IMG/VR virus record: IMGVR_UViG_3300009506_000114
Location: 1 to 44,816 of that record
Strand: one strand, 5' to 3'
Length of the DNA: 44,816 nt
DNA from: a virus
Position 1 is the stretch's first letter; every line of letters starts with the position of its first letter. Made by a program: the position numbers and the translations under genes. This document shows positions 12,666 to 41,654 of this stretch, in pieces. The notes below the pieces were generated by a model that was given only the letters and a program-made list of their open reading frames with translations, was not told where the DNA came from and ran no database searches.

Positions 12666-12880
12666 TACCACTCCTCGATCTGTCGGCAGAAGGTGTCGAA
12701 CTCCAGGGAGTCCGCGAATGTGTAGGCGGTGGTTCCGTCGGGGCGGTAGACCCCGGTGGCGTCGAAGGTCCAAGGGGGCACGGGTTCCGATTGGCGGACA
12801 TTGATTTCTGCATTTGGCCGCGCAATTTCAGCCGCCATGAGCAGGAAGATGCCCGCAATGATGATCTGGTAGGTTTTCAC
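12665..12880 (-). CDS. Small protein with N-terminal signal or anchor
   Basis: This encodes 71 residues from a GTG at 12880 that overlaps the previous TGA (GTGA), with GAGGAGACGCC upstream. MKTYQIIIAGIFLLMAAEIA is a Sec-type signal or single anchor, and the remainder (about 45 residues) is polar with one Cys. The stop overlaps the start of the glycosidase-like gene (TAATG). One option is that signal and enzyme were once a single secreted protein and are now split. Confidence 0.68.
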   Translation of the reverse strand: MKTYQIIIAGIFLLMAAEIARPNAEINVRQSEPVPPWTFDATGVYRPDGTTAYTFADSLEFDTFCRQIEEW

Positions 12881-13086
12881 GGCGTCTCCTCTCCGTTGCG
12901 GCTGGTTGGTCCGCACTTGTGGTCCTTGAATTCCTGCGGGAACAGGCACTTGCCACAGCCCCCGCACCTTCTCTGCCTAAGCCCAGATCGATATTGGACC
13001 GATGCCCATTCGTGCCAGTCGAGATAGCCAGTGGGCGCGGGGTCGCCGGGCTTGAAGTCAGGGCGAACGTTCAGGTGGACGTTCAT
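12877..13086 (-). CDS. Small Cys-rich zinc-finger-like protein
   Basis: This encodes 69 residues. RRCGGCGKCLFPQEFKDHKC carries C-x2-C-x2-C...H-x-x-C, a short zinc-knuckle pattern (about residues 40-58). The N-terminus is Pro/Asp rich. ATG 13086 directly follows the TAG of the previous gene, with GGGGAG upstream. Its role is unknown; nucleic-acid or protein binding is possible. Confidence 0.75.
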   Translation of the reverse strand: MNVHLNVRPDFKPGDPAPTGYLDWHEWASVQYRSGLRQRRCGGCGKCLFPQEFKDHKCGPTSRNGEETP

Positions 13087-13650
13087 CTACTCCCCCTCCT
13101 TCGCTTTGGTGTTGCGGGTGACGGTGACGGTGACGGGTTGTTCTGTATCCCCCATGTCGCCTGCGTCCTCGGTGCCGTAGATGGCCAACTGACTGTCCTC
13201 GTCGTAAAAAACAGTGCGGCCTTTGTTCATCCACCCCTCCACCACGGCGATGACCTCAGAATCGGAGGCGAGGATGGCGTCAAGGTTGCGGGCATTTTCC
13301 CACAATCCCTCAACGGCCCACTTCTTGAGTTCTTCCATGATCGGCTTCCACCTTTCCCCCACCGCCGCCAGCTGCGCGTTGGCCTTGGCACACTCGGGGC
13401 AGGGCGGGAGGTCGCCGGAGAGGGTAGACTCGATTCGAAGAATTGCATTTTCCCAGATGGTCCCTCGAAGTCGGTTCCTATCGAATGAACCGATTATATT
13501 AGAAATCGCCCTCAACCTCGCCCCCGCTTCCTCACACGCACGCACGGATCTAGACCACGCTGTTTCGAGTTCTGCCACACGACATTCAGCAACGAAACGC
13601 TCGTTAATGATCTGCTGGACTTCCTCGATGGTCATATCACTTTTGTCCAT
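13087..13650 (-). CDS. Mosaic paralogue A with CPEC motif
   Basis: This encodes 187 residues from ATG 13650, two nt after the previous stop and with GGAGGGGGAG upstream. It shares three blocks with the next gene upstream (13652-14281): GDLPPCPECAKANAQLAA, SD-EVIAVV-GW and the tail VTVTRNTKAKEGE. The rest differs. C-P-E-C gives half of a metal site. The N-terminal half is helical (VAELETAWSRSVRACEEAGA). It resembles Ead/Ea22-like phage proteins of unknown function. The longer frame to 13998 is rejected as a shadow of the paralogue. Confidence 0.8.
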   Translation of the reverse strand: MDKSDMTIEEVQQIINERFVAECRVAELETAWSRSVRACEEAGARLRAISNIIGSFDRNRLRGTIWENAILRIESTLSGDLPPCPECAKANAQLAAVGERWKPIMEELKKWAVEGLWENARNLDAILASDSEVIAVVEGWMNKGRTVFYDEDSQLAIYGTEDAGDMGDTEQPVTVTVTRNTKAKEGE

Positions 13651-24676: not shown

Positions 24677-26079
24677 TTCTGGGTCTTCCTGATGTCCCGG
24701 GCAGCGTTCGCCAGATCCGTCCTTGGCGCCCCGCCACCGCCAAGTTTCGGGGGAACCCACCCCAGTATTTTCACGAACTTGTCCCACTCCTCTTTGTCGT
24801 AATACGGGGCCCTGTTGGGGGCCGTGGATGTTTTGGTGGGGGCCGCTGGGGACGCCGACCCCTGCTTAATCGGCGCTGCCGATCCCCGGGCCCCCTGATT
24901 CAGTAGCTCCTGCTCGGCCGGCGTCGGACCCTCCAGGTTGAACCCGGCCACTGGGGCCCCGTACAGGGGAACCACCAATTCGCCGGTCTGGTTGTCCACG
25001 AGCCACCCGGTCTTGGACTCGGGATGGTAGTAGGGCATCAGTCGGGCCGGATCGGCACCGTTGTTGTAGGCCCGCTGGGCGGCCAGGATGAACTCCGGAG
25101 GCGCCTTGGCGATGGATACCGCGTAGGGGGAGGCATCCGACCCATCCTGCCACTTCCCATCGGGACCGACGTAGGCCTGGACCAACAGGCCCTTGATGGT
25201 CGGCAGGTCCATCCCTGCGAGGATCATCTTCTGGCCCATGTCCTCCAGAAGGTGCCTCATGGGCTCCTTCGATTCGGGGAAGATCGGCGCTCCCGGGGTC
25301 AGAACGTCGTCCTGACCCGTGAACAACTCCGACCGGATCCACGAGGACAAGTCCACGCTCATTTTGTTGAATTCCTTCTTCAACTCCTCCGGGCTCATGC
25401 CCTTGGCCTGGGCCTGGACGGTCAGGATCTTCCCCATCTTGTCCCACAGGTTGTTGAACATTTCCGTGGTCAGCTTCTTGTCCATGCCCGACTGCTTCTC
25501 GAACTCCGTCTGGTACTCGAGGAGGGCCAGGTTGGCGATGTTGGGGTCGAGCATCCCCATTTCGTCGACGGCCTTCCTCTTGACCCACTCCCAGGCGTCG
25601 TCCTGGGCCTTGCCCAGCCGGAGTTTCGTCTCGGCGGTGGTCTGGGTTTCCTCGTACTTCCGCTTCTGCTGGGGATCCCGCCATCCGGCCAGCGAACTCT
25701 GCCGACCGGGACTGGGCGGACCCTGCTTCCCCTCGTCCTGGACGGACACGGCGTTCTCCGCTCCCAGATGCAGCACGCTCTTGAAATGGGCTGTCGCGCT
25801 CCCGGCCGTGCGGACGTAGTCAGGGTAGGTCTTGTCCAGCCGCTCGGCCCGGCGCATGACCTCCACGGTCTGGGACGGATCCCAACTCGGGGAGTCGATG
25901 ATGGCTTCGATGCGGGCGAATTCGTCCTCGGCCGCGCCGGTCAACAGCCGACTCTCGGTGGCGATCTTCATGTTGTTCTCGAACAACTGCTGCTTCGCCT
26001 TGGCCTCGGCATCCCGCCGCGCCTTGTTGGCGGCCTTGCCGGCTTCCATCCCACCCAGAAGGGCTCCCATTGTATCCAT
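24673..26079 (-). CDS. Internal virion protein (T7 gp15-like position)
   Basis: This encodes 468 residues, alanine- and charge-rich and mainly helical (GKAANKARRDAEAKAKQQLF near the N-terminus), with a low-complexity Ala/Pro C-terminus. It lies between a glycine-rich protein and the giant polyvalent protein, the order of gp14-gp15-gp16 in T7-like ejection cores. GGAGAAGCCG precedes ATG 26079. Sequence alone does not establish homology to gp15. Confidence 0.72.
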   Translation of the reverse strand: MDTMGALLGGMEAGKAANKARRDAEAKAKQQLFENNMKIATESRLLTGAAEDEFARIEAIIDSPSWDPSQTVEVMRRAERLDKTYPDYVRTAGSATAHFKSVLHLGAENAVSVQDEGKQGPPSPGRQSSLAGWRDPQQKRKYEETQTTAETKLRLGKAQDDAWEWVKRKAVDEMGMLDPNIANLALLEYQTEFEKQSGMDKKLTTEMFNNLWDKMGKILTVQAQAKGMSPEELKKEFNKMSVDLSSWIRSELFTGQDDVLTPGAPIFPESKEPMRHLLEDMGQKMILAGMDLPTIKGLLVQAYVGPDGKWQDGSDASPYAVSIAKAPPEFILAAQRAYNNGADPARLMPYYHPESKTGWLVDNQTGELVVPLYGAPVAGFNLEGPTPAEQELLNQGARGSAAPIKQGSASPAAPTKTSTAPNRAPYYDKEEWDKFVKILGWVPPKLGGGGAPRTDLANAARDIRKTQK

Positions 26080-26088: not shown

Positions 26089-26847
26089 CTACTGCACGGG
26101 GCCCTGCATCCCGGCGTCCCACAGGTAGTTCCCGGTGGACTTGTTCAGGATGTTGGTGTTCAGGTACGAGGTTTCGTCTGTCACGGCGTTCCCCAGCCCG
26201 GCGAACACCGAAGGCAGGAAGGTGTCCGGGGCCACGGCCGTCGAGCTGGTCCCGCCGCTGCTGGTCGTGACCACCTTGGACTCGGAGATCCGCTGGTTCC
26301 AGAGCTGGGTGATCGTCTGGAGGTAGGTTGCGATCCTGGCCCGGGCCTGCTCGCGGCGGGCCTGGATGACCTGCTCGGCGCTCATGGTCGCGCTGCCGGC
26401 CGCGGCGGCCGTGTCCCGGGCCTCTCCGCTGGTCAACTTCTGGCCCATGACGTCGGCGGCGTAGCTGTTCGCCGCACCCCGGCTCGCCCGGTTGGCGTAG
26501 TCCTGGTTCTTGGCCGTGGCGTAGGCGGAACTGATCGCCTCCTGCTGGGGTCCGAAGATGGACTCGTAAATCTGCTTCCGCTGGGCCTCCTCGTCGGCCG
26601 CTCCGGTGGGCTTGAGTTCCCCCTGGAGCCCGGCATAGGCCTGGTCCAGAAGGGACTGCTCCTGGTCAGTCCAGGGCCGCATCTGGGTTTCTCGGGTAGC
26701 CGTTCCGCTCTGCGAGCCCCACGTCTGCGAGGTCCGCGATGCCGAATTTCCGGAACTGAATCCGCTGGCCGCTCCCACGGCCGCGCCCACGGGACCGCCA
26801 GTGGCGAACCCGACCAGGCCACCCAGAATACCGCCGAAAAGGCCCAT
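26089..26847 (-). CDS. Gly-rich internal virion protein (T7 gp14-like)
   Basis: This encodes 252 residues. Residues 1-45 are a glycine/alanine-rich hydrophobic segment (LFGGILGGLVGFATGGPVGA), as in podovirus proteins that enter the host membrane with the DNA. The rest is helical with Gln and Ala repeats (KNQDYANRASRGAANSYAA). It belongs to the block internal protein, internal protein, giant protein. GGAG lies seven nt before the ATG. Confidence 0.75.
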   Translation of the reverse strand: MGLFGGILGGLVGFATGGPVGAAVGAASGFSSGNSASRTSQTWGSQSGTATRETQMRPWTDQEQSLLDQAYAGLQGELKPTGAADEEAQRKQIYESIFGPQQEAISSAYATAKNQDYANRASRGAANSYAADVMGQKLTSGEARDTAAAAGSATMSAEQVIQARREQARARIATYLQTITQLWNQRISESKVVTTSSGGTSSTAVAPDTFLPSVFAGLGNAVTDETSYLNTNILNKSTGNYLWDAGMQGPVQ

Positions 26848-26850: not shown

Positions 26851-27366
26851 TTACTCCCTGGTCATCCCCATGAGGATCAGATCCTCCACGGGCTTTCCCT
26901 TGAGCTTCGTGCCGTCCCGCAGGACGCCTTCTTTCCTGAATCCGCACTCCCGGAGGATCTTCACCGTCCGGTTGCGGGTGCGAGGGATCAGCGACGTGAT
27001 CCGCCGCAGGTCCCGGCGCTCCATGACCCCCTGGAAGATCGGCAACAGGGCCTCCTTGGCCCACTCGTAGACCGGGTCCTCGTTCTTCTGGCCGTCCTTG
27101 CCGATGGGCGAGAAGAACCGGTAGGTGGGGATCAGGTCCACCGTCCCGAACTCTCCGTCGATGACGTCGGTAAAGATCACCCGCGCCACCGTCTCCTTCG
27201 TTTCCGTGTCCACGACCTCGATCATGGTGGCCGTCTCGCTCATGTTCCTGTACTGGAGGATCGCCAGGTCGACGTTCTCCGGGACCAGGTGGTGCTGGTC
27301 GAACAGGTGGAACAACTTCTCTGCCGTGACTTCATCCGGCGGCACCGCTTCCGGTTTCCAGATCAT
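26851..27366 (-). CDS. GNAT-like protein in the tail/core module
   Basis: This encodes 171 residues. A GNAT-like pattern is visible: VARVIFTDVIDGEFGTVDLI, then WAKEALLPIFQGVMERRDLR, then ITSLIPRTRNRTVKILRECG and FRKEGVLRDGTKLKG. The final part R-x-N/R-x-x-x-x-I-L-x-x-x-G-F is the acetyl-CoA site of GNAT enzymes. Podovirus genomes with T7-like tails often have such a gene next to the tail nozzle, where it may be a structural protein rather than an enzyme. It overlaps the nozzle gene by ATGA. Confidence 0.82.
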   Translation of the reverse strand: MIWKPEAVPPDEVTAEKLFHLFDQHHLVPENVDLAILQYRNMSETATMIEVVDTETKETVARVIFTDVIDGEFGTVDLIPTYRFFSPIGKDGQKNEDPVYEWAKEALLPIFQGVMERRDLRRITSLIPRTRNRTVKILRECGFRKEGVLRDGTKLKGKPVEDLILMGMTRE

Positions 27367-29033
27367 GACCTGGGACCTCCTTCACTGGCCTCCACTCGAT
27401 AGCCGACGACCTGGGCTCCCAGGTTGTTCGCCGCACCGACCCACTTGAACCTGATGATCTTGAAATCCCCGTCCAGATCGTACCGGACGATCTTACGCGC
27501 AAAGGTTCCCCACGCCGTCGAGCCCCAGGTGAAGGCCCCCCAGGCTCCGGAGGCCGCCCCGACGCTCCTGACGATCCGCTCGATTGGCTCCCAGGTGTCC
27601 ACGAAATCCTTCTGATACCAGAGCGTCACCCCGTCGCCGTCGTCACCATACAGCACTTCCAGCCACAGGGCGCGGGTGGAATCGGACAGTTCCCCGAAAT
27701 TGATCCAGTCGGTGATGTAGTAGAAATCCGTGCCCTGGATCACGCCGGAATCCAGTTGAACCACACCGTCCTCGAGCGACCCGGCGAGGGGGCGGGACAG
27801 GTAGCTCTCCGTCGCGGGGGTGGTCAGGACATCCTGGATGTTGGTGGTATCACCGTCCCAGATGGACCACTGGCCCGTGTCGTAGTAGTAGGCGAAGGCC
27901 TTGTCGTTGTTCGTGGACGTGGGGCTGGGGACGAACCAGACCACCCGCCGCCTGTCCTTCTCGTGCCAGCACCGGATCAGGCCGAGCTGGTCGGGAGCCA
28001 CGTCCAGCACGTCGTCCTGGATGTTCTCGCAGAGGGAACCGACTTCGATGTCCCCGTACTGGTTCACGGCCGCGAGATTCCGCGGGCCCTCCAGGCTCCA
28101 GAAGTACAGGTCGTTGCCGACCTTGGCCCAGGCCCGGTCGTTCACGCAGCCCACCGGCAGGTCCGCCTGCTGGAACCACTCGAACCCCGTGGGATCGCCC
28201 GGATCGCCGCCGTAGATCAGGGTGCGGCGCTCCTTGAAGATCACCGTGTAGGTATACATATCGGCAATCGAAACCAGCCGATCCCCGTCCCCCGGCCGGA
28301 TCTCGATGTACCCGCCGTCCACCGTGGCGTCCGGGGTGGCCCCGTAGCTCATGTCCTTGAGCATGAAGTTGTACTGGACGTTGACCTCGCTGTAGCCCAG
28401 GAGATTCGGGTTGTCGGGGAACCCGAGGGCGTACATTCGCTCGTTCCGGCCGCGGCCGATCACGCGCATCACGGTCGGCCAGTTGTCCGTCCAGGAAGAC
28501 GGATAGCCCTTCACCTGGTCGCCTGCCGCGGGGGCCGTCTCGATCTGGCCGGCGGGCAGGGTGATGATGTCTCCCGTGGCCGAAGTCTGGCCCAGAAGGA
28601 TCAGCGGGGCGCCATTGGAACGCGGCAGGTAGATGACCGAAGGATACTCCGTGCTGACCTCGTCGTAGTACCTGCTGTTCTCCCGGCCGTAGAAATCCTG
28701 GGCCACGAGGGAGTAACCGGAAGCGTGGGTCGGCGTCTGCCACGTCCAGGTCCCGGGTTCCGGCACACGGTAGATGGTCTGCCCGGCGATGATGTAGAGC
28801 CACCCGCGAGACTGCTCCGGCTGGTTCAGCATCATGACGGCCTCGACGCTGTCCTCCCCGGCAGGAACTCCCAGGATGGTGTAGCCCTTCCGCTGCTTGA
28901 TCGCGTGGCGCGGGAGCAGATCGGCGTTCCGCAGATCCGGGGACATGAAATCCGGCAGGCTGACCTCGCTAAACTGCGTGACCAGGCCACCGAAGATCCT
29001 CAGAACCGGTTGCTGTGGCCTTTCTCCGACCAT
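27363..29033 (-). CDS. Tail nozzle/hub protein (T7 gp12-like)
   Basis: This encodes 556 residues, beta-rich. The N-terminus (VTQFSEVSLPDFMSPDLRNA followed by LLPRHAIKQRKGY) has the typical opening of podovirus tail stabilisation or tail-tubular B proteins, where LxxRxGY is conserved. Repeated strands (VLRIFGGL, YIIAGQTIYRVPEPG, WFVPSPTS) suggest a propeller-like body. It would form the distal tail. GGTGAGGC precedes the ATG. Confidence 0.75.
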   Translation of the reverse strand: MVGERPQQPVLRIFGGLVTQFSEVSLPDFMSPDLRNADLLPRHAIKQRKGYTILGVPAGEDSVEAVMMLNQPEQSRGWLYIIAGQTIYRVPEPGTWTWQTPTHASGYSLVAQDFYGRENSRYYDEVSTEYPSVIYLPRSNGAPLILLGQTSATGDIITLPAGQIETAPAAGDQVKGYPSSWTDNWPTVMRVIGRGRNERMYALGFPDNPNLLGYSEVNVQYNFMLKDMSYGATPDATVDGGYIEIRPGDGDRLVSIADMYTYTVIFKERRTLIYGGDPGDPTGFEWFQQADLPVGCVNDRAWAKVGNDLYFWSLEGPRNLAAVNQYGDIEVGSLCENIQDDVLDVAPDQLGLIRCWHEKDRRRVVWFVPSPTSTNNDKAFAYYYDTGQWSIWDGDTTNIQDVLTTPATESYLSRPLAGSLEDGVVQLDSGVIQGTDFYYITDWINFGELSDSTRALWLEVLYGDDGDGVTLWYQKDFVDTWEPIERIVRSVGAASGAWGAFTWGSTAWGTFARKIVRYDLDGDFKIIRFKWVGAANNLGAQVVGYRVEASEGGPRS

Positions 29034-29040: not shown

Positions 29041-29805
29041 CTACTCGTTGTAGTTCGGGCCCGGAACATGATTGCGGTTCATGTCCTGCGAACTGCTCAT
29101 GCTCGCCCCCCGCCTCCGGAGATCCTTCCGGCCGATGGCGATGTCGGCCTCGAAATCCCGGTACATCATGTACTGCTTGTAGTACCCGGTGGCGAGCTTG
29201 TGGTGGGCGAACCACAGCTCGCGCGGAAGGCCGATGTCGTCCTCGTCCGTCAACAGGGGGCCAGCCTGCTTCCAGTATTGCCCGTAGAGGGTCCCCTCGG
29301 TATCCACGAAGTCCTCGTCGGGGATCGGCATGAGCCCGACGTACCCGTCCAGGTAGGTGTAGTGGTAGGGCTCCCCGAAATTGTGGGACTGCTCGGACAA
29401 CTGGAAGGCCGATCCGATCCCACCCACACCGGAGCCCGGCGTAAAGGACCGAATATCGGGGTACAGCCTGATCAGGTCGCGGAACTCCATGAACTCGATG
29501 GACCGGTCGATCCTGTTCATGCTGATGGGCCCAGCGGCGTCCACCCAGTCCCCGGGTGCCTCGTACCACATTTGGCCCTCGACCAGGTCGAACTCGAACT
29601 GGCCTCGACGCCAGTGCCACATGACGTGGTAGAAAACCTCGTCGCGGGCGTCGATCACGGCCTCCTTGGCCTTGTCGAGCCGCTTGGTCGGGGTCCCGAT
29701 GGCCGTGTTCACCGAGACGAAGTTCGATTCCCCGATCTCGCTGCACAGGCGGTTCACGGCCTGGAGGAAGGTCCGCTGGGTTCCGTCGACGCCTACGATT
29801 GTCAT
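29041..29805 (-). CDS. Tail tubular protein A (gp11-like adaptor)
   Basis: This encodes 254 residues. The N-terminus (FLQAVNRLCSEIGE, then KRLDKAKEAVIDARDEVFYH and VMWHWRR) matches T7 gp11-like tail-tube A proteins that start with a helix bundle sensing the portal. The centre carries DLIRLYPDIRSF and the C-terminus is basic (GRKDLRRRGASMSSSQD). It connects portal and nozzle. GGAGCGAGCC precedes the ATG. Confidence 0.85.
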   Translation of the reverse strand: MTIVGVDGTQRTFLQAVNRLCSEIGESNFVSVNTAIGTPTKRLDKAKEAVIDARDEVFYHVMWHWRRGQFEFDLVEGQMWYEAPGDWVDAAGPISMNRIDRSIEFMEFRDLIRLYPDIRSFTPGSGVGGIGSAFQLSEQSHNFGEPYHYTYLDGYVGLMPIPDEDFVDTEGTLYGQYWKQAGPLLTDEDDIGLPRELWFAHHKLATGYYKQYMMYRDFEADIAIGRKDLRRRGASMSSSQDMNRNHVPGPNYNE

Positions 29806-29814: not shown

Positions 29815-31794
29815 CTAGTGGAAAGCCTGCCACCCAGACCCGTTGTATCCCTTGAAGGTCGAGTTGGTACTGTCGAACCAGATCAGGCCCCGCTTCCCGA
29901 CTGTGTCAGGTTCCGCCGTGATGGCTGGCAACCACATGGTTCCGTCCCCGTAGGGAATCCAATTCCCTGCGGCTAGTTGATTCCTGTCTGCGTACCCGTC
30001 CGTGACCACCAGATTGTCGATGATCACATACTCGTCGCTCACGGTTGTCGTTTCTCCGGGATAGAGGACGTAGACCCTCACGTCCAGGGCGGTTTCAGAT
30101 CCATTAACGTCGGCATAGGCCGAGAAATAGTTCCAGGCCCCGTCGATGTAGTTGTTGTTCGGCTCCCAGCCTGCGTAGGATCCACCCACTGCCCCGTAGA
30201 ATCCCACCTGGACGTGCCCGTCCCTGGTGGTGTAGGTGGAAACACTGGGGACGTAGACCCACACCCCGCACCTGATCCGTCTTCCCTTGAAGGCATCCAG
30301 AACCGGATCCGATAGCCTGATGTAGGCGGCCGAGGAAGAATCACCCGAGCCATCAGATTCGATCTTGACTGCGCTTCCGCCCGTCCTGCTGGCCGTGGTG
30401 TCCGTAACGGTTGCGTTGGTCAAAGTCCATTCGACGGCCCCGGAACCCCGGTAAAACATGGGATCAGGCCAGTAGTTGTAGGCCGGGTTGATGGTGTTGG
30501 AACCATCTGTGAGAACAGCGCCGGTAACGGAACAATCGAAATGGACGCGCTCCGTGTTGCTGGTCGTGGAAATGATCTGATGTTCCCATCTGGCGTCGAT
30601 GGAAACACTCTCAAGGGTGACGCCAAGAACATCATCGAACTCGAACATATGCGCCGAACCGTCGCCGCCGACCCTCGAAGCCCTTCCTCCGGAAATAAGG
30701 ATTTCTTCGCACTGGGTCGTGAACCCGGCCTTGACGAACCAGAGATCGCTGGCCCCTCCGTTGCCCTCGAAGTAGCAACCGCTGAACGTGACCCCCAGAC
30801 ACCCCTCCAGAGAAACCCCTGTTGTGTTATGACCCTCGATGACGCATCCGGAAAAGGTCAGTCCGTCGCTGTTGGAAATGGCAGCCTGATTGTCGTTATG
30901 CTCTATGGCGCACCCGCTGAACAGGACCCCGTTGACGGTATCCCCACGAACCCCCGTGGTGTTCTGGCGAATATTGGAGCCCACGATCTGTCCGATATAG
31001 GCGTCGTACAAGTCAAGGCCATAGGTACAGTCGTAAATGTCGCACGAGTCTATCCGCCAGTGGTGAGGATGATCGGGTGAGATATTGTCGGCCGTCTCAA
31101 TTCCCGTGCAGTCGTTCCCGTTCCCGTTGATTCCCAACCAGTAGACTCCCCAGCCCTGAGTGTCGACGCTGATCACGGCGGAACCGTCGTACATCCCCGC
31201 GACCAAGACGGAGCCGACCTCCCCTGGGACCCCGCTGGTCATCGGCTTGAGATTGGGGGCGGATCCCATCAGAATTACCCCTTCCTTGAGTTCGATGGTA
31301 GACCCGACGAAATAGGCCCCCGCCGGAACAAGCACCATCCCGCCGCCAGCCGAGGAGCAGGAGTCGATGGCTGCCTGGATGTAGGTCGTGCAGTCAGTGG
31401 AGTCCGTTCCTGAAATCGCCTCTGCCCCGAAGTTGACGATGTTGTAGATCCCGAGTTTGTCGGGATCCCAGTTGATGGCGGAAACCACAACGTCCTCGAG
31501 CGTGTAGGAGACGATCCCGGCCCGGGAAATAGCCAAGTCGTAGGTTCCCGGCGGGACGTAGAAGTAGTACCTGCCGTACCCGTCGCTGTAGACGGGGTTG
31601 TTCTTGGTCCCGATGGCCGTAGTGTACCCCGAGTACAGGGTGGCCTTGGTGCTGGTGTTGGCCTTATAGACCGTGATGGTCGCGGCGGAAACCGCGTCTC
31701 CCCGGACGTTCTGGACCGTCCCCTCGTAGCGGTAGACGGTGTCGGCCATCGCGGGGGCCGCCAACAGCAACAGGCACAGCAGGAATCTACGCAT
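29815..31794 (-). CDS. Signal-peptide-bearing pectate-lyase-fold tail spike
   Basis: This encodes 659 residues. Residues 1-18 (MRRFLLCLLLLAAPAMADTV) are a clear Sec signal with AMA cleavage, which is very unusual for a tail spike. Residues about 25-105 are a carboxypeptidase-regulatory-like domain (YSDGYGRYYFYVPPGTYDL). Residues about 115-440 are a right-handed beta helix with the Pectate_lyase_3 opening (VNFGAEAISGTDSTDCTTYI, then AIDSCSSAGGG, then VPAGAYF). Residues about 450-620 form a jelly-roll, carbohydrate-binding-like module. It likely degrades or binds host surface glycan. Position after the capsid genes and before the tail tube supports a virion role. Confidence 0.85.
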   Translation of the reverse strand: MRRFLLCLLLLAAPAMADTVYRYEGTVQNVRGDAVSAATITVYKANTSTKATLYSGYTTAIGTKNNPVYSDGYGRYYFYVPPGTYDLAISRAGIVSYTLEDVVVSAINWDPDKLGIYNIVNFGAEAISGTDSTDCTTYIQAAIDSCSSAGGGMVLVPAGAYFVGSTIELKEGVILMGSAPNLKPMTSGVPGEVGSVLVAGMYDGSAVISVDTQGWGVYWLGINGNGNDCTGIETADNISPDHPHHWRIDSCDIYDCTYGLDLYDAYIGQIVGSNIRQNTTGVRGDTVNGVLFSGCAIEHNDNQAAISNSDGLTFSGCVIEGHNTTGVSLEGCLGVTFSGCYFEGNGGASDLWFVKAGFTTQCEEILISGGRASRVGGDGSAHMFEFDDVLGVTLESVSIDARWEHQIISTTSNTERVHFDCSVTGAVLTDGSNTINPAYNYWPDPMFYRGSGAVEWTLTNATVTDTTASRTGGSAVKIESDGSGDSSSAAYIRLSDPVLDAFKGRRIRCGVWVYVPSVSTYTTRDGHVQVGFYGAVGGSYAGWEPNNNYIDGAWNYFSAYADVNGSETALDVRVYVLYPGETTTVSDEYVIIDNLVVTDGYADRNQLAAGNWIPYGDGTMWLPAITAEPDTVGKRGLIWFDSTNSTFKGYNGSGWQAFH

Positions 31795-31797: not shown

Positions 31798-32262
31798 CTA
31801 CTCCTTGACCTTGGCGCTGGGGAATTGACTCCACAGGAACCGCTTCCTCGTGATCTCCTTGTGGACCTCGCTGTCGCTCAGGTCGATCTCACCCGGGCCC
31901 CGATTGTGGGTGTGGTGGGTTTCCTCGGCCAGCAGCAGGGAATCCACGACCTCGCGCGGGACGTCCTGCCACATATCCAGGTAGACGATCCACTTCTGGC
32001 TCAGGGGGAAAATCTGCGGGTTGGCGTCGTAGTCCGTCCGCGGCTGGATGTTGACCTGCCACCAGTCGGGGTTATACCTCCCGCCGTTGTCCACGCAGAA
32101 GTGTCCCTCCGTCCCGCAGGGGGGGTTCTTGAACCCCTCGGGAAGCGGCCGGCCAGGGACGATGTTGAAGTTGGTCGGGTCCTCGGGGTCGAGTACCTGG
32201 CCGTCCTCCCGGTCCATCTGCTTCATGATGGCCCTTTCGGTTTCCTTCAATTTGTCGGTCAT
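31798..32262 (-). CDS. Virion-module protein, unknown
   Basis: This encodes 154 residues from ATG 32262, with GGGAG seven nt upstream; an earlier ATG at 32268 is poorly placed. It has one Cys-rich loop (NPPCGTEGHFC), aromatic patches (YNPDWWQVNIQP) and a charged helix. It sits between the capsid and the tail spike, where minor capsid or neck proteins usually lie, but no family is recognised. Confidence 0.72.
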   Translation of the reverse strand: MTDKLKETERAIMKQMDREDGQVLDPEDPTNFNIVPGRPLPEGFKNPPCGTEGHFCVDNGGRYNPDWWQVNIQPRTDYDANPQIFPLSQKWIVYLDMWQDVPREVVDSLLLAEETHHTHNRGPGEIDLSDSEVHKEITRKRFLWSQFPSAKVKE

Positions 32263-32304
32263 GATCATGCTCCCGTATTTTTCGCCCCGTCAGGCGAGTG
32301 TTGT

Positions 32305-32767: not shown

Positions 32768-33835
32768 CTACCAGAGGGCCAGGCACTCGATCCGCACCAT
32801 CCTGGAATCGTCGAGGATCTTGGCGGTGGCGGCGAACTTCCACCCCGCGGTCGACCTCTGGTGCAGGGGGTCCCCCTGCCCGCCCGGAGGATCGTAGTAC
32901 GTCGCGGCCGAGCCCTGGAGCTTGACCACGCCGTAGGCGTCCTCCGCGATCACCAGGATGGAGTAGACGTCCGCGTTGGTCCCGGAAGTCGACCGGTAGG
33001 CACCGCTCGCCGCCGTGGCGCTCACCGTGACGCTCGAACTGCCCGTGTCCGCCCACACCTTGGCGAAGGTGGTCATGACGAACCGGATGTTGTCGATGGA
33101 CCCGACTTCCGTGGGGTAGGCCACCGTGCCGGCGGCGTACTTCTCACGGGGGATCCACCCGTCCACCTTCCGGAGGTTCTTGACGACGTGCGGGTGGACG
33201 ATGGCGATGTACGCCGGCCCGATGGGGGAGGTCGTGACCTTCGTGCTGGCGCCCATTCCGGACATCCAGTACGGGGCGTCGTTCCCCTCGAGCATGGTGG
33301 CGGCCATCGCCGTCGCTTCCTTCCCCGCGGTGTCGCTGATCGCCTCGTAGGTGAGCGAGCGCGTGCCCGAAGTGTTGACTTCTCCGTCCACGCACCGCAG
33401 GACCGCGGTACCGGCGTTGATGATGTCGCGGGTGATGATGTCCCGCGTCTCGCCGGCCTGGATCCCCAGCTTCTCCGTGGCCTGCATCAGCACGTTGTCG
33501 ACGTGGAAGAAGTTGACCTGGTCCGTCAGTCCCACCCAGTCGCCGTACCAGCGAACGGTGGCGATGACGTTCTCGTAGGCCAGCTTCTTCCCCGGAGGCG
33601 TGATGCCGTCCGCCAGGGGAACGATGTTGGGGGGCAGCTTGAGCCACCGCCGCCAGATACACTGTTCCCCGGTCTTCTTCTTGAGGGTGTAGGCCGTCCC
33701 GAACTGGTCGTGGACCAGCTTCGGTCGGGCCACCGCCAGGAAGGTCCGGAAGTACATGGCGTGGGTTGCGTAGGGCATCGTGGGGGACGCCTCGCTGGTC
33801 GCCCTGTACTCGGTCAAGGTCTGGAAACCGTTCAT
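32768..33835 (-). CDS. Major capsid protein, N4-gp56 family
   Basis: This encodes 355 residues. Features of the N4-gp56 family are seen throughout: FRTFLAVARPKLVHDQFGTA at about 30-50, RRWLKLPPNIVPLADGITPP at about 60-80, VIATVRWYGDWVGLTDQVNF at about 90-110, and AGETRDIITRDIINAGTAVL at about 130-150. HK97-like coat proteins of this family form the shell. It follows the scaffold gene and is preceded by a hairpin that holds its SD. The end is beta-rich with Gly/Thr. Confidence 0.92.
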   Translation of the reverse strand: MNGFQTLTEYRATSEASPTMPYATHAMYFRTFLAVARPKLVHDQFGTAYTLKKKTGEQCIWRRWLKLPPNIVPLADGITPPGKKLAYENVIATVRWYGDWVGLTDQVNFFHVDNVLMQATEKLGIQAGETRDIITRDIINAGTAVLRCVDGEVNTSGTRSLTYEAISDTAGKEATAMAATMLEGNDAPYWMSGMGASTKVTTSPIGPAYIAIVHPHVVKNLRKVDGWIPREKYAAGTVAYPTEVGSIDNIRFVMTTFAKVWADTGSSSVTVSATAASGAYRSTSGTNADVYSILVIAEDAYGVVKLQGSAATYYDPPGGQGDPLHQRSTAGWKFAATAKILDDSRMVRIECLALW

Positions 33836-33866: not shown

Positions 33867-34829
33867 CTATCCCTGCTTGGACTTCGCCAAGAGGGCAAGA
33901 ACCTGCTCGTCGGACAGCGCCATGATGGCGTCCCCCTTCTCCTGTTCGGTCATCTGGTCGAAACTGCGCGTGTCGTCGGACCCGCCCATTTCCGCGCTCA
34001 ACCTCCGGGAGACGGGATTGACCCTCTGGCTGCCGCCCTTCGAGGGCTCCTGTTTGTTCAGTTTCATGGCCAGGACGATGAATCCCGGCAATCCGGTGAA
34101 ATCTGCACGATCATCCTCCGAGAGAGACTTGTGATGCTCGACCACCTTGGGAATGTCCGCCGCCGTGAATCCAGGAACGTGCTTCTGGACTCGTGCGACC
34201 AACTCCTGCTCCCTCGTCTTCTGGACCAGCGGGGCCGTGGTGTCTTCGAGTGCCGCGAGACGCTTCTCCAGTTCGGGATCGTTCCCGATGGCCTTCCTGT
34301 ACTTGCCAAGGTATTCCACCATGTCAGGGTCCAGGTCGTCAGTCTCGCCGCCTTCTTGCTCACCGGGCTCCTTCTTGTCCGTCAGTTTGAGGGCCATGTC
34401 CTGCCATCGCTTTTCCCTCTCCTCGGTCTGGGCCAGTCTCTCGGTCAACTCCTTGACCCTGGCCTCCAAGCCGGTAGGTTCCGGCGCGGGCGTCTCGGTC
34501 GGCTCCTTGGTCGGAGCGGGGGGGGATCCCTCGGCATCGGCCTTCTCCTGCTTCCGGGGCAGCACCCCGCTCAGGTTCAAGACATCCTCGATGCTCAGGG
34601 GCCTCTCCTCGTCCGCCTGGGGAGCGTCGGCCAGCCCACCGCGGTCGAACTGCTCCGGATCTATTCCCTTTTCCTCGGGTTCCCCCTGCGCGGGCTGCCG
34701 CTCCTGCGGCTCGCCCTCCGGCTTCTCGGCCGGCTGCCTGGGTTCCGGTGCCTTGAGGGCCTCGATCTCCTCGGGAGTGGGCTCCTCGGGAATTTCTCCA
34801 AAAGCCAGAACGTCGTCCAAATCACCCAT
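33867..34829 (-). CDS. Scaffold protein
   Basis: This encodes 320 residues, highly acidic, Pro/Glu rich and helical, as scaffolds are. A long acidic N-terminal region (PEEPTPEEIEALKAPEPRQP) and a coiled coil at about 105-140 (LEARVKELTERLAQTEEREK) are visible. The C-terminus (LSDEQVLALLAKSKQG) is the typical helix that binds coat proteins. Its position between the portal and the major capsid gene fits. GGAGG precedes the ATG. Confidence 0.82.
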   Translation of the reverse strand: MGDLDDVLAFGEIPEEPTPEEIEALKAPEPRQPAEKPEGEPQERQPAQGEPEEKGIDPEQFDRGGLADAPQADEERPLSIEDVLNLSGVLPRKQEKADAEGSPPAPTKEPTETPAPEPTGLEARVKELTERLAQTEEREKRWQDMALKLTDKKEPGEQEGGETDDLDPDMVEYLGKYRKAIGNDPELEKRLAALEDTTAPLVQKTREQELVARVQKHVPGFTAADIPKVVEHHKSLSEDDRADFTGLPGFIVLAMKLNKQEPSKGGSQRVNPVSRRLSAEMGGSDDTRSFDQMTEQEKGDAIMALSDEQVLALLAKSKQG

Positions 34830-35116: not shown

Positions 35117-37010
35117 TAGCAGCCTCCATCCTTCGTTGCTCGGCCATCATCTTCTTGAACTGCTCGATCTCTTGCAGGTAGTTCTCCTTCGACTTGATGA
35201 TCTCCCCGGCCTCGCCAAGAATCTCGATCATCACCCGGCGCCACAGAATATGGTCGTTCACCGGGGTCGGGAGTCCTTGGGCCACCCGCTGGTCGTTGAG
35301 CTGGATGGCCATGAGCAGTTTTTCGATGCGGTCCGATTTCTCCGCGACGTGGACGGACCCTCGGGCCCGCGCTATCCCCCCGCGCATTATCTGTTCGGGT
35401 GGAACGGTGACGTTAAGCACCTTGTCGTCCTGGGTGATCTGGAAGACCTGATCCGTGGTCAGGTTCATGCCGTTCATTTCCAGGCACATATTCAGGAACG
35501 GGGTCAGCAGCTCGTCCTCGAGGTCTTCGACCCGGGCTCCGTGCTTCGTGGCGATGACGCCCGTGTTGCGGGCCGTGAGGGTGGCCGACTCGTCGTTGTT
35601 CCCCTGCGTGTTGATCGCCCCGGTGATCCTCTCGACCCGGGCGATGGCGTCACTCACCGCCTGCCACCCCACCTGGAGGCCCGTGAAGTTCTTCGGGATG
35701 GCTGTGATCGTGCCCTTCTTGTTGACGTAATGCCGCACCCCCGGCCCGCTGGGAGCCATGACCTGGTCCCGGGCGAGGTCTTCTTCCACGACCTCGAGTT
35801 CGGGCTGGATCACCACGTTGACCGCGTCGATAAGCTGGTTGTGGACGGCGTTGGCCGTGTCCTGCTCGTCCAGGGCCTTCTCCAGAAGGCCTATCCCGTA
35901 GACGGCGCCCTCCAGGACGTGGAACCGCGCGTTGTTGACCAGGGACTTCCCACTGTAGAGGGGGCTGGGTTCGGCACGGATCACGGTATTGTCGTTCGCC
36001 ACGACCACGATGTAGTTCTGGTAGATCCTGCCGGCGTCCATGCCCTTCTTGATCTCGAAGGTCCCGTACTGGGCCTTGAGCAGCACCTTCTCCTTGCCGT
36101 GGGGAAGTTGCATATGCAGGGCCATCTTCATGAGGTCTTCACCGACGTTGTCCTCGGATTTGTCCTCGCTGGTGATGTCCGCGATCTTGTTAAGGTTCTC
36201 GTACATCCGGTAGCCCGTCTCGTCGACCTCGCCCATCTTCTTGAGGTAGGCGTGGGTGCGCCACGAGCGCATGATCCGGATGGCCTGGTCCCGGTCGTTC
36301 GGGTGCTGTTCCTCGACGTAGTTGAAGATGCTCCCGATCTGGAGTTTCGGGCCCTGGTAGACGACGTCGAAGTCCTTCCCGGGCGGGCGCGGGGGGTCCC
36401 TGAACGTTGGCGGGGGCGGGGCCGGCATCCCGGCGGCCTCGGCCTGGGCCACAATGTCCGCGTACTCGCGGGCGATCTGGAGACGTTCCTGGTGGAACCG
36501 GCGGGAATCCTCGATCCACTGTTCGGTGGCCTTGTTGAAGGCCAGGGGGTTCACCAGGGCCCGCTGGACCGCCCACTGGCCAGCCCAAGGGCAGTTCCCC
36601 AGGATCCCCAGCGAGCGAATCGCCATCTTGAACGTCGGGATGAAGTTGTTCCTGGTCATCTGGTACAGGAGCAGGTAGCGCATATTCTCGGCCCAGATGT
36701 CATCGTCCTCGAAGAACCCCTCCCGTTGGGGAGCGATGTCCAGCCAATCCATCCCCGGCATGGACGATGCGGCAAGCTGCGGAACCACCGTCTCGATGGC
36801 GTCGAACAGCAGGGACAGGTAGCGGTGCGAGCGATTGGCCTGGTTGGCGAATTCCGCCCAACTCTTGTCGAACTTGCAGAGGTAGGCCATCAGGCACCGG
36901 ATCCACTCCGATTCCAGGGACGCCCGTTCGTCCTTCATGGTCCGCCAGCCGTCGACCACCTGGTCCTTCATTTCCTGGAGGGTGGTGGGGTTGGTGATCA
37001 CAATGCCCAT
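34998..37010 (-). CDS. Podovirus-type portal protein
   Basis: This encodes 670 residues from ATG 37010, sharing bases with the TerL stop (TGATG), with GGAGGA six nt upstream. The N-terminus (TTLQEMKDQVVDGWRTMKDE) and the central SLVNNARFHVLEGAVYGIGL with LLEKALDEQDTANAVHNQ are typical of large portals that join a short tail. The C-terminal 40 residues are Gly/Ala-rich and overlap the next gene. It forms the ring that DNA passes through. Adjacent TerL and scaffold genes support this. Confidence 0.85.
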   Translation of the reverse strand: MGIVITNPTTLQEMKDQVVDGWRTMKDERASLESEWIRCLMAYLCKFDKSWAEFANQANRSHRYLSLLFDAIETVVPQLAASSMPGMDWLDIAPQREGFFEDDDIWAENMRYLLLYQMTRNNFIPTFKMAIRSLGILGNCPWAGQWAVQRALVNPLAFNKATEQWIEDSRRFHQERLQIAREYADIVAQAEAAGMPAPPPPTFRDPPRPPGKDFDVVYQGPKLQIGSIFNYVEEQHPNDRDQAIRIMRSWRTHAYLKKMGEVDETGYRMYENLNKIADITSEDKSEDNVGEDLMKMALHMQLPHGKEKVLLKAQYGTFEIKKGMDAGRIYQNYIVVVANDNTVIRAEPSPLYSGKSLVNNARFHVLEGAVYGIGLLEKALDEQDTANAVHNQLIDAVNVVIQPELEVVEEDLARDQVMAPSGPGVRHYVNKKGTITAIPKNFTGLQVGWQAVSDAIARVERITGAINTQGNNDESATLTARNTGVIATKHGARVEDLEDELLTPFLNMCLEMNGMNLTTDQVFQITQDDKVLNVTVPPEQIMRGGIARARGSVHVAEKSDRIEKLLMAIQLNDQRVAQGLPTPVNDHILWRRVMIEILGEAGEIIKSKENYLQEIEQFKKMMAEQRRMEAANAGAGQAGRGPGAEGQMAQGENGGGAAGGVFGSPAGIPQ

Positions 37011-38419
37011 CAGAATCCTCCTCCGGGAACGTCTCTGGCCCGGACATATTTTTCCCGCCCGCCCGTCATCTGGTGGTGCCGCCTGCGAAGCTGCTCCCTG
37101 GTCGGGATGCGGTGCTGGAGCGCCCCGCAAAATTGGTCGTAGTGATGATCCTCGGCGTGGGAGTCCACGTCCTCGATGTTGTTGTCGTCCACCGGCAGGC
37201 TCGGGAACGTCCGGATGAAATGCTCACAGTGGCTCATGACCTTGAACCTGGCATTGCCGTTGGTCACGGCGAGGAACTGGTGGACCGCGAGTTTCCGGAG
37301 TTTCCGGCGGTCCTTCCCGTGCTTCTTCCACGGCCGCCAGCCCAGTTGGCTCCCGCCCAGTTCCTCCACGATCAGGCCGCTCTGGCCCTTCTCCTCCCAG
37401 CACTGGCTGTCCAGGTAGCCGATGGGGACCCAGATTTCGTGCATCCTCTCGAAGCTGTCGATCTTATCGCGCACGACACTGGGGGCCTCGCGGGTGCCGA
37501 CGTTGGGCTTCCCGCTCCAGCCGTAGATTTCGTTGCCCATGATCAGGTCGCCCTCGTTGCTGGGGAAGTACCATCCCCCCGCGTAAGGCTCGCCGTATCC
37601 CCAGTCGAGGGATCTCCAGATGGGCCGGTCGTGCGGCATGGGGGCCGGCTGGATGACGTGGACCTTGGGGTTCCACTCCGGGAAGGCGGCGCCGGCCACG
37701 ATGTTCCAGTCACCCATGCGAAGGGCCTCGGCCATGTTCGGATCGTCCAGCTCGTAGATCCGGTCCTCGTAGTGCGGATCGTTCTCCATGAGGATCCGGT
37801 TGTCCTCGAGCTTCGCCGGGATGTAGACGCGCCAGTATTTCCTGCCGGTCGTCGTCTCCACCAGGAATCCCTCTCCGGGATAGTTGGGGTCTACGAACCT
37901 TGCCTTCACCCAATGATGTCCCGGCCCGCCCGGGTTGGTCGCGGCCCGGACCCTACAGGGATGGCCGTGTGGGGACCGGCAGCGGGAGAACAGGTAGGTG
38001 TAGGGATGGGGCGAGGACCACTGGGTCAACTCGTCCCAGCCGATCCAGGTGTACTGCTTGCTCTGGTGCTTGAGGACGTCGTCCTTGCGCTCGATGGCCC
38101 GGAACTTCAAGGTCGCACCGGAGGGGAAGTCCCACATCCGGCGGCTCTCCCGCCAGCACTCCACGCCGTAGACCGGGCCGAAGATTTCCTTCGACCGCTC
38201 GATGATCTCGTCCAGGTCGCCCAGGTAGCGGCGGAAGTAGACGCCCTTCCAGCCCTTGCCACGAGGGATGTCCTTGGCGAAGTCGCCCATCAGGCCGTCC
38301 GACTTGCCGCCACCCACCGCTCCTCCGTACAGGACCTCGAAGGCCGGGCACTGGAGGAACAACGACTGGGGCCCCGGCTGGGGCTGCCACGCGATGTTCA
38401 TGGGTAGGGACTTGGCCAC
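37010..38419 (-). CDS. terL: Terminase large subunit
   Basis: This encodes 469 residues from GTG 38419 (GGAGACGG upstream). Walker A is LYGGAVGGGKS (about 30-40), Walker B is YTWIGWDE (about 123-130), and motif III is ATNPGGPGHHW (about 160-170). The nuclease domain starts with WRSLDWGYGEPYAGG (about 265-280), carrying the first catalytic Asp of the RNase H fold, with GYLDSQCW (about 350) downstream. It drives DNA into the prohead and cuts it. No neighbouring small-subunit gene is certain; the gene at 42262 is a candidate. Confidence 0.93.
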   Translation of the reverse strand: MAKSLPMNIAWQPQPGPQSLFLQCPAFEVLYGGAVGGGKSDGLMGDFAKDIPRGKGWKGVYFRRYLGDLDEIIERSKEIFGPVYGVECWRESRRMWDFPSGATLKFRAIERKDDVLKHQSKQYTWIGWDELTQWSSPHPYTYLFSRCRSPHGHPCRVRAATNPGGPGHHWVKARFVDPNYPGEGFLVETTTGRKYWRVYIPAKLEDNRILMENDPHYEDRIYELDDPNMAEALRMGDWNIVAGAAFPEWNPKVHVIQPAPMPHDRPIWRSLDWGYGEPYAGGWYFPSNEGDLIMGNEIYGWSGKPNVGTREAPSVVRDKIDSFERMHEIWVPIGYLDSQCWEEKGQSGLIVEELGGSQLGWRPWKKHGKDRRKLRKLAVHQFLAVTNGNARFKVMSHCEHFIRTFPSLPVDDNNIEDVDSHAEDHHYDQFCGALQHRIPTREQLRRRHHQMTGGREKYVRARDVPGGGF

Positions 38420-39364: not shown

Positions 39365-41203
39365 TCAGCGAGGCCCCACCCAAACACTGTCAGGCCACCC
39401 CGTCCCACATGAGTCGTAGATCGCCGCGGATGCCTCCATTTCCGCCGTCGCCCCGTTGGCCTGGGTCACGATCACCGGGTCGATGTAGATGGGATTCCTG
39501 CCGAGCCTGCGCTGAACGGCCTGTCCGAGCGTCATCATCTGCACGTTCGGCTGCGCGTTGATGTAGCCCATCAGGTTCCGCAACTGCGTGACCGTGCAGC
39601 CGTTCGATGCTGGTGCTGCGTTCAATTCGTCGTGGACGTAGGCGATGATCGCGGCCTTGCCCTGCCAGGTATAGTGCCAGTCGATCTGGTCGTTCAGGTT
39701 GTCGAGAATATCGGCCGCCGAAGTATCCGGGCTCGCGTCCGCCCCGAACAATGACGCGGGATAGATCAAGGCCAGGTCCTTTGTGTTGACAAACCAGTCC
39801 CAGGCTAGAGGTGTGGCCATGCCGATGTCTGACCACTGGTCGGATTCCTTGGTCCCGCGCGACGCCCTGTATCCGTTGCGGACGACTTGCCGGACGCCCT
39901 CATAGGACAGGTATGGTTCTTCGGCTCCAACCGGATACGAGAAATCAAGCATATTGGTGGTGTCGATGGTGGCCGTGAACAGAGGGTCGATCCAGTCACG
40001 GCGCAGCAGACTATCGCGCCCGGCGTCGGTGGAGAACGACCCGAGCGATGTGTGGGTGGCCCCGTGGGGGATCAGCTCAACGAAATCCCAGGCAGCCAGC
40101 GAATCATATTGGGCCTGCGTCATCTTGCCGGCCGTGGGCGGGAAGTAGCTCCCGCTGATCATCTCATTGACCACGCCACCGGAATCCCCGATGGTCTGCG
40201 CGTAGCCATAATGGACGTCGTTCCCGTCATCAAGGCAGAAGATGAACGGGACGAGGCCGCGCTGGCCCCAGGGCCTTGCGGCGCGGTTCGGCGTGACGGC
40301 CACGACCTCCAGGCAGGCGTTGTACCTGGAGATGTTGTCACCGGCTTCGACGCGGACGACGTTGGACGGGGTTCCGGACGTCAGGCGGGAGGACACCAGC
40401 CAGCACAAAAGGCCGCTGCTTTCGAGGCCCTTGTCTACCACGAGTTGCGTTGCGTGCGTCAGGTCGATGGAAAACGTCTCGTTGGCGGCAACATCGGTTT
40501 CGATGATGTCGTCCGACCTGACCCCGTAATCGCACCAGTCGTCGCGGTCATATAGGGACGGGGTCCAGTGGGTGTTCGCGGAGTCGGAAATATCCATCGC
40601 GTTCCAGCAGGCGTTCAGCTCGTGGGGGTCGCTGGTAACGGATGTCGCCGAGGCGACCGCAAAGTCGGCCGCAGCGGTGTCCACGCGGATGCACGCGAAG
40701 TTTCCCGAGCCTACGTCAATGGGCGGAGATCCTCCCCGGTATCCATATCCCACGAACTTTGCGGAAACGATCTGCGCTCCGGCCGGGATCTGCGAGATGT
40801 CAAACCACCAGAAGGCACGATATTCTCCGCTGATGGTTGCATTGTATTCAACGCTTCCCATTGTGCGGATCTCGTCTACAATCGCAATCTTGGCCGCCGG
40901 AGATGCCTGATTGAAATACCCGTACTTCATCCCCGATGCGGCGGAATCCACCGCATCGTATGCCGAGACGGCAGAGATGAACCCCAGGGATTCGGCGTCT
41001 GGATTGTGGTTCGTCGAGTGCTTGATGAGCAACTTGAACGTATCGACGCCGGCAGATCCCACCGGACCAACCGCTACACCACCACCAAGCCCCAGCGGAT
41101 TCAGCGCCCCAACTGGCCCGATCTTCCGCGGATCCGCACCCCCCACCACAACCAGACAGATCGCAACGAGGGACCACAACAACAAAATACGCCGCAACAG
41201 CAC
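39365..41203 (-). CDS. Secreted protein with DNRLRE-like and polysaccharide deacetylase-like domains
   Basis: This encodes 612 residues from GTG 41203 (AGGGGG upstream). The N-terminus MLLRRILLLWSLVAICLVVV is a Sec signal/anchor. Residues about 60-300 form a beta-sandwich with DNRLRE-like pieces (YRAFWWFDISQIPAGAQIVS, then AKFVGYG). Residues about 315-560 carry NodB-like features: VPFIFCLDDGN (motif 1, D-D) near 320 and ELIPHGATHTSLG (motif 2, H-x-x-x-H) near 380, so it may bind a metal and deacetylate a cell-surface or capsular glycan. It lies upstream of the terminase block, an unusual place for a virion enzyme. Confidence 0.75.
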   Translation of the reverse strand: MLLRRILLLWSLVAICLVVVGGADPRKIGPVGALNPLGLGGGVAVGPVGSAGVDTFKLLIKHSTNHNPDAESLGFISAVSAYDAVDSAASGMKYGYFNQASPAAKIAIVDEIRTMGSVEYNATISGEYRAFWWFDISQIPAGAQIVSAKFVGYGYRGGSPPIDVGSGNFACIRVDTAAADFAVASATSVTSDPHELNACWNAMDISDSANTHWTPSLYDRDDWCDYGVRSDDIIETDVAANETFSIDLTHATQLVVDKGLESSGLLCWLVSSRLTSGTPSNVVRVEAGDNISRYNACLEVVAVTPNRAARPWGQRGLVPFIFCLDDGNDVHYGYAQTIGDSGGVVNEMISGSYFPPTAGKMTQAQYDSLAAWDFVELIPHGATHTSLGSFSTDAGRDSLLRRDWIDPLFTATIDTTNMLDFSYPVGAEEPYLSYEGVRQVVRNGYRASRGTKESDQWSDIGMATPLAWDWFVNTKDLALIYPASLFGADASPDTSAADILDNLNDQIDWHYTWQGKAAIIAYVHDELNAAPASNGCTVTQLRNLMGYINAQPNVQMMTLGQAVQRRLGRNPIYIDPVIVTQANGATAEMEASAAIYDSCGTGWPDSVWVGPR

Positions 41204-41213
41204 AACCAGCCCC

Positions 41214-41654
41214 CTATTGCAGGACGTACCCCGTGATCCACAACGTATCGGCCGGCGCCGGAGCGATCAACCAGGGCATGAACCCAGCGAAAACCTCCCC
41301 TGTCGCCGATACCGGCTGCGAAAAGTTCAAAAGCGAATCCACCTGGCCATCAGAAGCCGAACTCGTCATGACCTCGTCGTTCGCCAGCATATTCGTCTGC
41401 ATGATGAAAACGTCGAAATCCGTACTCGATTTCAGCGAGAGAATGTCCATCCGACGACCGAAGACAGACGACACGCTCAAGCACAACGGCGTGTACGCCG
41501 TCCAACCATCCCCAGTCGCGCTCTTGTACCCCGTCCCGGGCAACCAGCCCACCGTCCCCTTCAACTGCGGCGTCTTCTCCGCAGCTCGCGCCCCAGGAAC
41601 CACCAGGACCAGAAAAAGCCCCAGCAACGCGAAAACCAGCATCATCCGTCGCAT
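41214..41654 (-). CDS. Secreted protein, unknown
   Basis: This encodes 146 residues. The N-terminus MRRMMLVFALLGLFLVLVVP followed by GARAAEK is a Sec signal with an A-R-A cleavage site near residue 24. The mature part is beta-rich and low in charge (TGYKSATGDGWTAYTPLCLS). ATG 41654 directly follows the stop of the gene at 41655, with GGAGG upstream. It is likely exported with the neighbouring deacetylase-like protein. Confidence 0.75.
   Translation of the reverse strand: MRRMMLVFALLGLFLVLVVPGARAAEKTPQLKGTVGWLPGTGYKSATGDGWTAYTPLCLSVSSVFGRRMDILSLKSSTDFDVFIMQTNMLANDEVMTSSASDGQVDSLLNFSQPVSATGEVFAGFMPWLIAPAPADTLWITGYVLQ

Follow-up and report, generated by a model that had tools for sequence, protein, structure and literature searches.

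A tail spike with a predicted Sec signal peptide in the virion operon of an uncultured N4-gp56-capsid podovirus

In the textbook view, the assembly of tailed phages is wholly cytoplasmic and the parts are freed by lysis. The tail spike gene considered here starts with a Sec-type leader, and such a leader indeed conflicts with an assembly that takes place only in the cytoplasm, as the initial annotation had pointed out. Is the protein a virion spike, is its leader translated, and what would an export signal do on a receptor-binding protein? The window (the whole stretch of DNA that was analysed) is one record of an uncultured virus, 44,816 bases long with a GC content of 63%, and a podovirus gene order runs across it on the minus strand (Table 1). 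The 659-residue spike ORF proposed initially exists on that strand, while the plus strand is not open over the same positions.

Table 1. Features of the window around the spike gene, in the order of transcription.
Feature	Position	Strand	Basis or remark
P0015, putative third exported late protein, 146 aa; signal MRRMMLVFALLGLFLVLVVPGARA, then A	41214..41654	-	L195: 149-aa signal-bearing protein at the same position
P0002, putative second exported late protein, 612 aa; signal VLLRRILLLWSLVAICLVVVGGA	39365..41203	-	Polysaccharide-deacetylase-like motifs LDDGND, HGATH
Large terminase (terL)	37010-38419	-	
Portal	about 37010 to 34998	-	
Scaffold	33867-34829	-	
Major capsid protein (MCP), N4-gp56-like	32768-33835	-	PHROG 1357, 4e-54
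130-aa gene, between MCP and 156-aa gene		-	
156-aa gene, directly upstream of spike	31798..32268	-	Kept beside spike in kin
Shine-Dalgarno AAGGAG, six bases before spike ATG, within 3' end of upstream gene	31801..31806	-	Sequence; AGGAG at equal spacing in kin L195 and L174
Tail spike, 659 aa	29815-31794 (ATG at 31794, stop 29815-29817)	-	
Predicted Sec/SPase I-type signal peptide, residues 1-17, MRRFLLCLLLLAAPAMA	31744..31794	-	Heuristic score and inspection; same kind in L195, L174/L175/L244
Virion-type N-terminal anchor domain, about residues 18-106, CarboxypepD_reg-like	31477..31743	-	Pfam PF13620 6.6e-5, under cut-off (residues 24-106); aligned to cultured-phage spike N-domains; kept in kin
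Right-handed parallel beta-helix, receptor/glycan part, about residues 117-430	30505..31446	-	Pfam Beta_helix; boundaries inferred
C-terminal part, about residues 431-659; resembles carbohydrate-binding jelly roll and tail-fibre-type C-terminus	29818..30504	-	Inferred from sequence
SU10-adaptor-like head-tail adaptor gene, directly downstream of spike	29041-29805	-	Pfam PF24175 1.3e-5, just under cut-off
Stabilisation-like protein	27363-29033	-	
GNAT-like protein, then two further proteins, then 2633-aa polyvalent protein (LPD38)		-	Gene order

The protein matches Pfam Beta_helix (9.8e-12, residues 244-348) and PHROG 2234 'tail spike protein' (5.7e-13), which bears out its first description as a beta-helix spike. 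The entry of the helix gives a hit to Pect-lyase (2.7e-5 at residues 118-187, under its cut-off) and the helix itself resembles the pectate lyase of PDB entry 5olp (9.4e-5). No database match was found for the C-terminal part, and the single-sequence AlphaFold2 model of the spike, with a pLDDT of 40, is too weak to be of use. The spike gene lies directly upstream of the adaptor gene in the window and in two related contigs (L195 and L248). By predicted fold, anchor domain and synteny, the protein is a true member of the tail-spike family, but for the usual leaderless start.

The N-terminus (MRRFLLCLLLLAAPAMA, followed by DTVYRYEG) is composed of a basic n-region (MRR), a hydrophobic core of 10 residues and an AxA site after residue 17. 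The start context is aaggagTAGatcATG, in which TAG is the stop codon of the upstream gene. Ribosome sites of the same form occur elsewhere in the window: AGGAG-N6 at the adaptor gene and at gene 24673-26079, GGAG-N6 at gene 26089-26847 and at the amidase gene. The only other plausible in-frame ATG, codon 16 within the AMA motif (Met16), has no Shine-Dalgarno site. Signal peptides were called with a home-made heuristic and by inspection, not with SignalP; the heuristic looks for basic residues at the start, then for a hydrophobic core of 8 residues or more and a small-x-small site, with a threshold score of at least 28. Such a score together with a Shine-Dalgarno site was found in 1 of 902 antisense shadow ORFs. 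When the ribosome site is left out of account, the heuristic score is reached by 14 of 5370 shuffled N-termini, and shuffling the leader's own residues reproduces the score of the spike in 5 of 100,000 trials (0.005%). Translation of the spike from the first ATG, and the Sec design of its leader, are thereby well supported at the level of sequence.

Other readings of the leader were considered and rejected. The lipobox of lipoproteins, [LVI][ASTVI][GAS]C, is absent, since the sole cysteine of the leader is residue 7, after FLL. The Tat motif [ST]RRxFLK is absent too: MRRFLLC has its RR at residues 2-3, without LK and without a preceding S or T, and the kin have MKK. A signal-anchor-release (SAR) endolysin would carry an uncleaved, weakly hydrophobic segment on a lysozyme-like enzyme, whereas here a short core and an AxA site stand on a beta-helix spike. 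The mature spike has 12 cysteines, several of them in the 'SGC' ladder of the beta-helix, and an argument from an odd number of free cysteines was dropped for that reason.

Searches with the spike as a single query gave no matches, whether as scans of viral_contigs and genome_contigs or as tblastn against phages. A loose profile of the major capsid protein retrieved distant kin only, and the adaptor and stabilisation profiles gave no extension to distant kin. Close kin, with 51-62% capsid identity over the matched stretch, were retrieved only with A3, a capsid profile built from closer capsids. One of them, L195 (IMGVR_UViG_3300049479_000205), has the same gene order as the window (terL-portal-scaffold-MCP-p130-p156-spike-adaptor-stabilisation-GNAT-252-468-big). 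The GNAT-like acetyltransferase gene of the window (26851-27366, minus strand) lies within the virion operon, and it has the same place in L195 and L249.

The L195 spike (L195:11788-14673, 961 aa) starts with MKKFLLYLLVAMIAASAAHGATAYRYQDSV and has the signal peptide MKKFLLYLLVAMIAASAAHG. One further spike, of 520 aa, is encoded in the same gene slot by L174, L175 and L244 and starts with MKKILPYLMLLMLVAVPARA followed by ATTYRYSDSV. Both genes have AGGAG at spacing 6 and neither has a Met at the position of Met16. A downstream start is therefore excluded in these relatives and very unlikely in the window. The leaders are far more diverged than the domain that follows them: window and L195 share 5/17 leader residues and 43/80 anchor-domain residues, window and L174 8/17 and 46/78, L195 and L174 9/20 and 55/78. 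Hydrophobicity is retained despite this low identity, and all three leaders begin with basic residues, continue with a hydrophobic core and close on small residues (AMA, AHG/ATA, ARA) right before the domain. Judged by their sequences, three independent leaders of this design are not due to chance. The signal peptide ending in AMA that was noticed initially thus stands as a Sec-type signal, on its three-part design, its ribosome site, the low chance rate and the leaders of two orthologues; that the Sec signal of the spike precursor is both translated and selected appears well supported.

Signal and anchor domain together form an N-module of about 125 residues, which is 48-53% identical among the window, L195 and L174 spikes. 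The similarity drops off in the beta-helix. Indeed, the window spike aligns to that of L195 over residues 1-251 and to that of L174 over residues 4-162, while the main beta-helix of L174 matches the second of the two beta-helices of L195. A conserved anchor with exchanged receptor-binding parts is a known pattern of virion receptor-binding proteins. The conserved N-module and the swapped beta-helix of this family thus point to a protein of that type. The anchor domain also resembles spike N-domains of Serratia, Idiomarinaceae, Escherichia, Pantoea and Enterobacter phages, with E values of 0.02 to about 1 that are suggestive only. The initiator Met of six cultured-phage spikes aligns to Met16 of the window. 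The domain also occurs, more distantly related, in L246 and L247, where it stands at the very start of the protein, without a leader.

Leaders are found on a second anchor domain as well. In two kin with capsid identities of 42% and 39% (L176 and L183), the same slot, two genes after the capsid gene, holds fibres with a different, widespread tail-fibre N-domain (...GWKVYTYEAGTTTPK...) that matches the 'tail fiber protein' of Vibrio phage VvAW1, Rhodoferax phage P26218 and others. Both fibres have signal peptides and good ribosome sites, and the cultured relatives checked begin at the domain, exactly at the end point of these leaders. All 12 of the leaderless relatives of both anchor domains that were compared, from ten cultured phages and two contigs, begin right at the domain, and the window leader similarly stands exactly before the start point of its leaderless relatives. 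In the first 80 distant kin, 14 of 113 accessory long genes and none of 259 core long genes have a signal-like leader (Fisher 3e-8; genes not independent, 9/73 clusters). Several of the leader-bearing genes are tail-type (L067, PHROG tail fiber 2e-17; L042, PHROG baseplate 2e-9; L062, Beta_helix 7e-8; L039, Beta_helix 1.4e-5, just under cut-off); a Gly-rich tail protein of L014, which has a low score, was set aside as a false positive of the heuristic. Other kin have leaderless spikes or fibres (e.g., L064, L061, L073), so that the leader is an optional addition.

Several other signal-bearing proteins were seen in these contigs. Directly downstream of the leader-bearing fibre of L183 are two small signal-peptide proteins (L183:11623-12015, MKYLTVILVTVLFWLPASA followed by G; 12742-13107, MKRIFLALMLLAYALPAFA followed by A). 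Very long beta-helix proteins with signal peptides precede the portal gene in L039/L040 (1716-5243) and L062 (466-3390). A conserved family of about 290 aa, 5' of the scaffold gene within the capsid operon of L021, L039, L040, L058, L062 and L072, has an N-terminal signal or membrane anchor (MKNFSKKIWIGIIVAAVALFSLLA), and may be anchored rather than cleaved. Tail-fibre-like proteins with signal peptides also occur in the phage contigs L033 (5317-7368), L084 (14745-16910), L111 (2130-4229) and L119 (13931-15691); those of L033 and L084 have a common N-domain (ITPNFP..NDFSEGDIIEEEDFNAIENTIG), and L111 and L119 are binned with Patescibacteria (Nealsonbacteria and Parcubacteria, respectively).

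The spike is not the only late protein with a predicted signal. In the window, P0015 and then P0002 lie upstream of terL (39365-41654, minus strand), and a signal-bearing pair of 149 aa and 697 aa occupies the same place 5' of terL in L195 (L195:1816-4364). The 697-aa protein matches Polysacc_deac_1 at the family cut-off (9.4e-5) and has a weak relation to P0002 (5e-6); no sequence matches to P0002 or P0015 were found in the kin fragments. This pair, found in both genomes, suggests that the lineage exports at least one probable glycan-modifying enzyme besides the spike. At the same place, the G001/L248 contig has an open-ended protein of 1613 aa with similar DDA/AHSRHH motifs and fibronectin-like repeats. 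A virion polysaccharide deacetylase is known, the turret protein of the archaeal virus HFTV1 (PMC12494034), so that P0002 may by analogy be a virion part as well. Like the companion P0002/P0017, the turret protein has a glycan-binding-like part and a deacetylase domain; a signal peptide is unmentioned in the text of that paper, and the comparison concerns P0002, not the spike (PMC12494034). Two other proteins of the window have N-terminal signals. P0003 (125 aa, 6601-6978, minus strand) starts with a textbook Tat signal, MNRREFLKAAGLVVASAATVSILPLPAKS, and its C-terminus (KPGGKTDPLMQRSMAGW) resembles that of the virus's own major capsid protein (blastp 5e-9). P0004 (264 aa, 10820-11614, minus strand; MKHALTLILVAVLAVRAQA followed by Q) is a Sec-signal protein near recombination genes for which no database match was found.

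How does this spike compare with known systems? Podoviral and myoviral beta-helix spikes (P22-type; the depolymerases of Serratia phage Hera, E. coli phage ECOO78 and Pantoea phage AAS21) share with it the N-terminal anchor, the beta-helix and the place in a virion operon, but the coding sequences of the Hera, ECOO78 and AAS21 spikes start at the domain, without a signal peptide, whereas the window spike has a leader of 17 residues. WceF of Pantoea stewartii is a trimeric, secreted EPS hydrolase of tailspike fold, with a Tat signal, encoded in a biofilm operon; it is exported, as predicted for the window spike, and has a virion-like head domain (PMC7949094). WceF is however bacterial, belongs to an EPS biosynthesis cluster and uses Tat rather than Sec, whereas the window spike belongs to the virion operon of a phage. 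Among phage endolysins, those with Sec signals (Lys44 of fOg44) or SAR domains are late proteins which use the host Sec route (PMC6116005), but they are lysis enzymes, not receptor-binding proteins, and SAR domains are uncleaved. According to one survey, DGR target proteins of phages have no signal peptides, unlike bacterial ones (PMC6199706). No description of a conserved signal peptide on virion receptor-binding proteins was found in the titles and abstracts of the open-access literature searched. Leaderless spikes, Sec/SAR endolysins and the exported bacterial WceF are thus known already; what appears to be new is the predicted export signal on an otherwise true tail spike.

The explanation that we favour, with a confidence that stops just short of even, is that the spike of this N4-gp56-capsid podovirus is made as a Sec precursor, is exported late, probably acts on envelope glycan and may join the particles at lysis. 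In this precursor, a cleavable signal peptide would directly precede a virion-anchor domain of ordinary type, and an exchangeable beta-helix that binds or cuts glycan would follow. The precursor would reach the Sec translocon late in infection and signal peptidase I would cut it after AMA, which would leave a mature N-terminus (DTVYRYEG...) equivalent to that with which leaderless virion spikes begin. Within the envelope, the mature spike would act on surface glycan together with the deacetylase-like P0002. Since the anchor domain is conserved, the spike would probably also attach to particles from outside, once lysis mixes envelope and cytoplasm. The more specific proposal, that a receptor-binding spike is completed outside the cytoplasm, being exported by Sec, cut, used on envelope glycan and picked up by particles at lysis, so that the last step of virion assembly is extracytoplasmic, is possible but more tentative. 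Some points count against export. The 12 cysteines of the mature spike would be awkward in an oxidising periplasm, and the cytoplasm suits the folding of trimeric beta-helix proteins. The secreted analogue WceF relies on Tat instead of Sec (PMC7949094). If the host is a diderm, export by Sec without a further step would end in the periplasm, and the crossing of the outer membrane is a problem. Leaderless spikes with the same N-domains are normal working virion parts of other phages. Export need not bar assembly, since P22 heads have been combined in vitro with tail parts that were made separately, to give complete particles (Israel et al. 1967, as cited in PMC3741392).

The main rival, which we consider rather unlikely, is a free exported enzyme that is no longer a virion part and cuts or masks surface glycan (for superinfection exclusion, progeny release or biofilm dispersal), like WceF. 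WceF, though exported, still has a head domain like that of P22 and a neck like that of CBA120 (PMC7949094), which shows that an anchor domain can be retained away from the virion, and the predicted export of a deacetylase-like late protein by the window and L195 fits an enzymatic role. The initial suggestion of a simple free secreted depolymerase is nevertheless unsupported as it stood: it does not account for a signal within an N-module that is kept while the beta-helix is exchanged, nor for a gene that has kept its virion-operon place next to the adaptor gene. The virion would moreover be left without an evident spike, since no further spike gene, one without a leader, was recognised in the window. 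Another possibility, clearly less probable, is that the leader is translated but unused for export, being kept for virion attachment or folding, or that the spike is retained at the inner membrane during its translation and built into the particle from the cytoplasmic side. The place of the gene in the virion operon and its typical anchor domain agree with this, and a hydrophobic leader might, in principle, be packed into the tail; but three diverged leaders all keep the basic start, the hydrophobic core and the small-residue end, such leaders stand on two unrelated anchor domains in the same slot, and neither domain needs such a segment in its leaderless relatives. It is very improbable that one gene gives two products, one begun at the first ATG and exported, the other begun at Met16 and kept in the cytoplasm for the virion. 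Met16 does align with the initiator Met of leaderless spikes, and an in-frame alternative start gives endolysin isoforms in mycobacteriophage Ms6 (PMC6116005), but the missing Shine-Dalgarno site and the absence of this Met from L195 and L174 argue against it. Finally, the idea that Met16 is the true start and the upstream codons are untranslated is nearly refuted. MADTVYRYEG resembles an ordinary spike start, but the ribosome site at the first ATG, the leaders without internal Met in two orthologues and the low chance rate effectively exclude a start downstream of the signal, which the initial annotation had named as a result that would refute its reading.

For annotation, this locus is a warning that the labels 'secreted beta-helix protein' and 'tail spike' are not mutually exclusive. 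If the exported virion spike that we favour is real, some phages would route their receptor-binding spike through the export machinery of the host, with leaders on two anchor domains in one gene slot. The spike would then be a dual-use protein, an envelope enzyme as well as a virion part, and its export would be a simple means to clear or mask receptors ahead of the emergence of the progeny.
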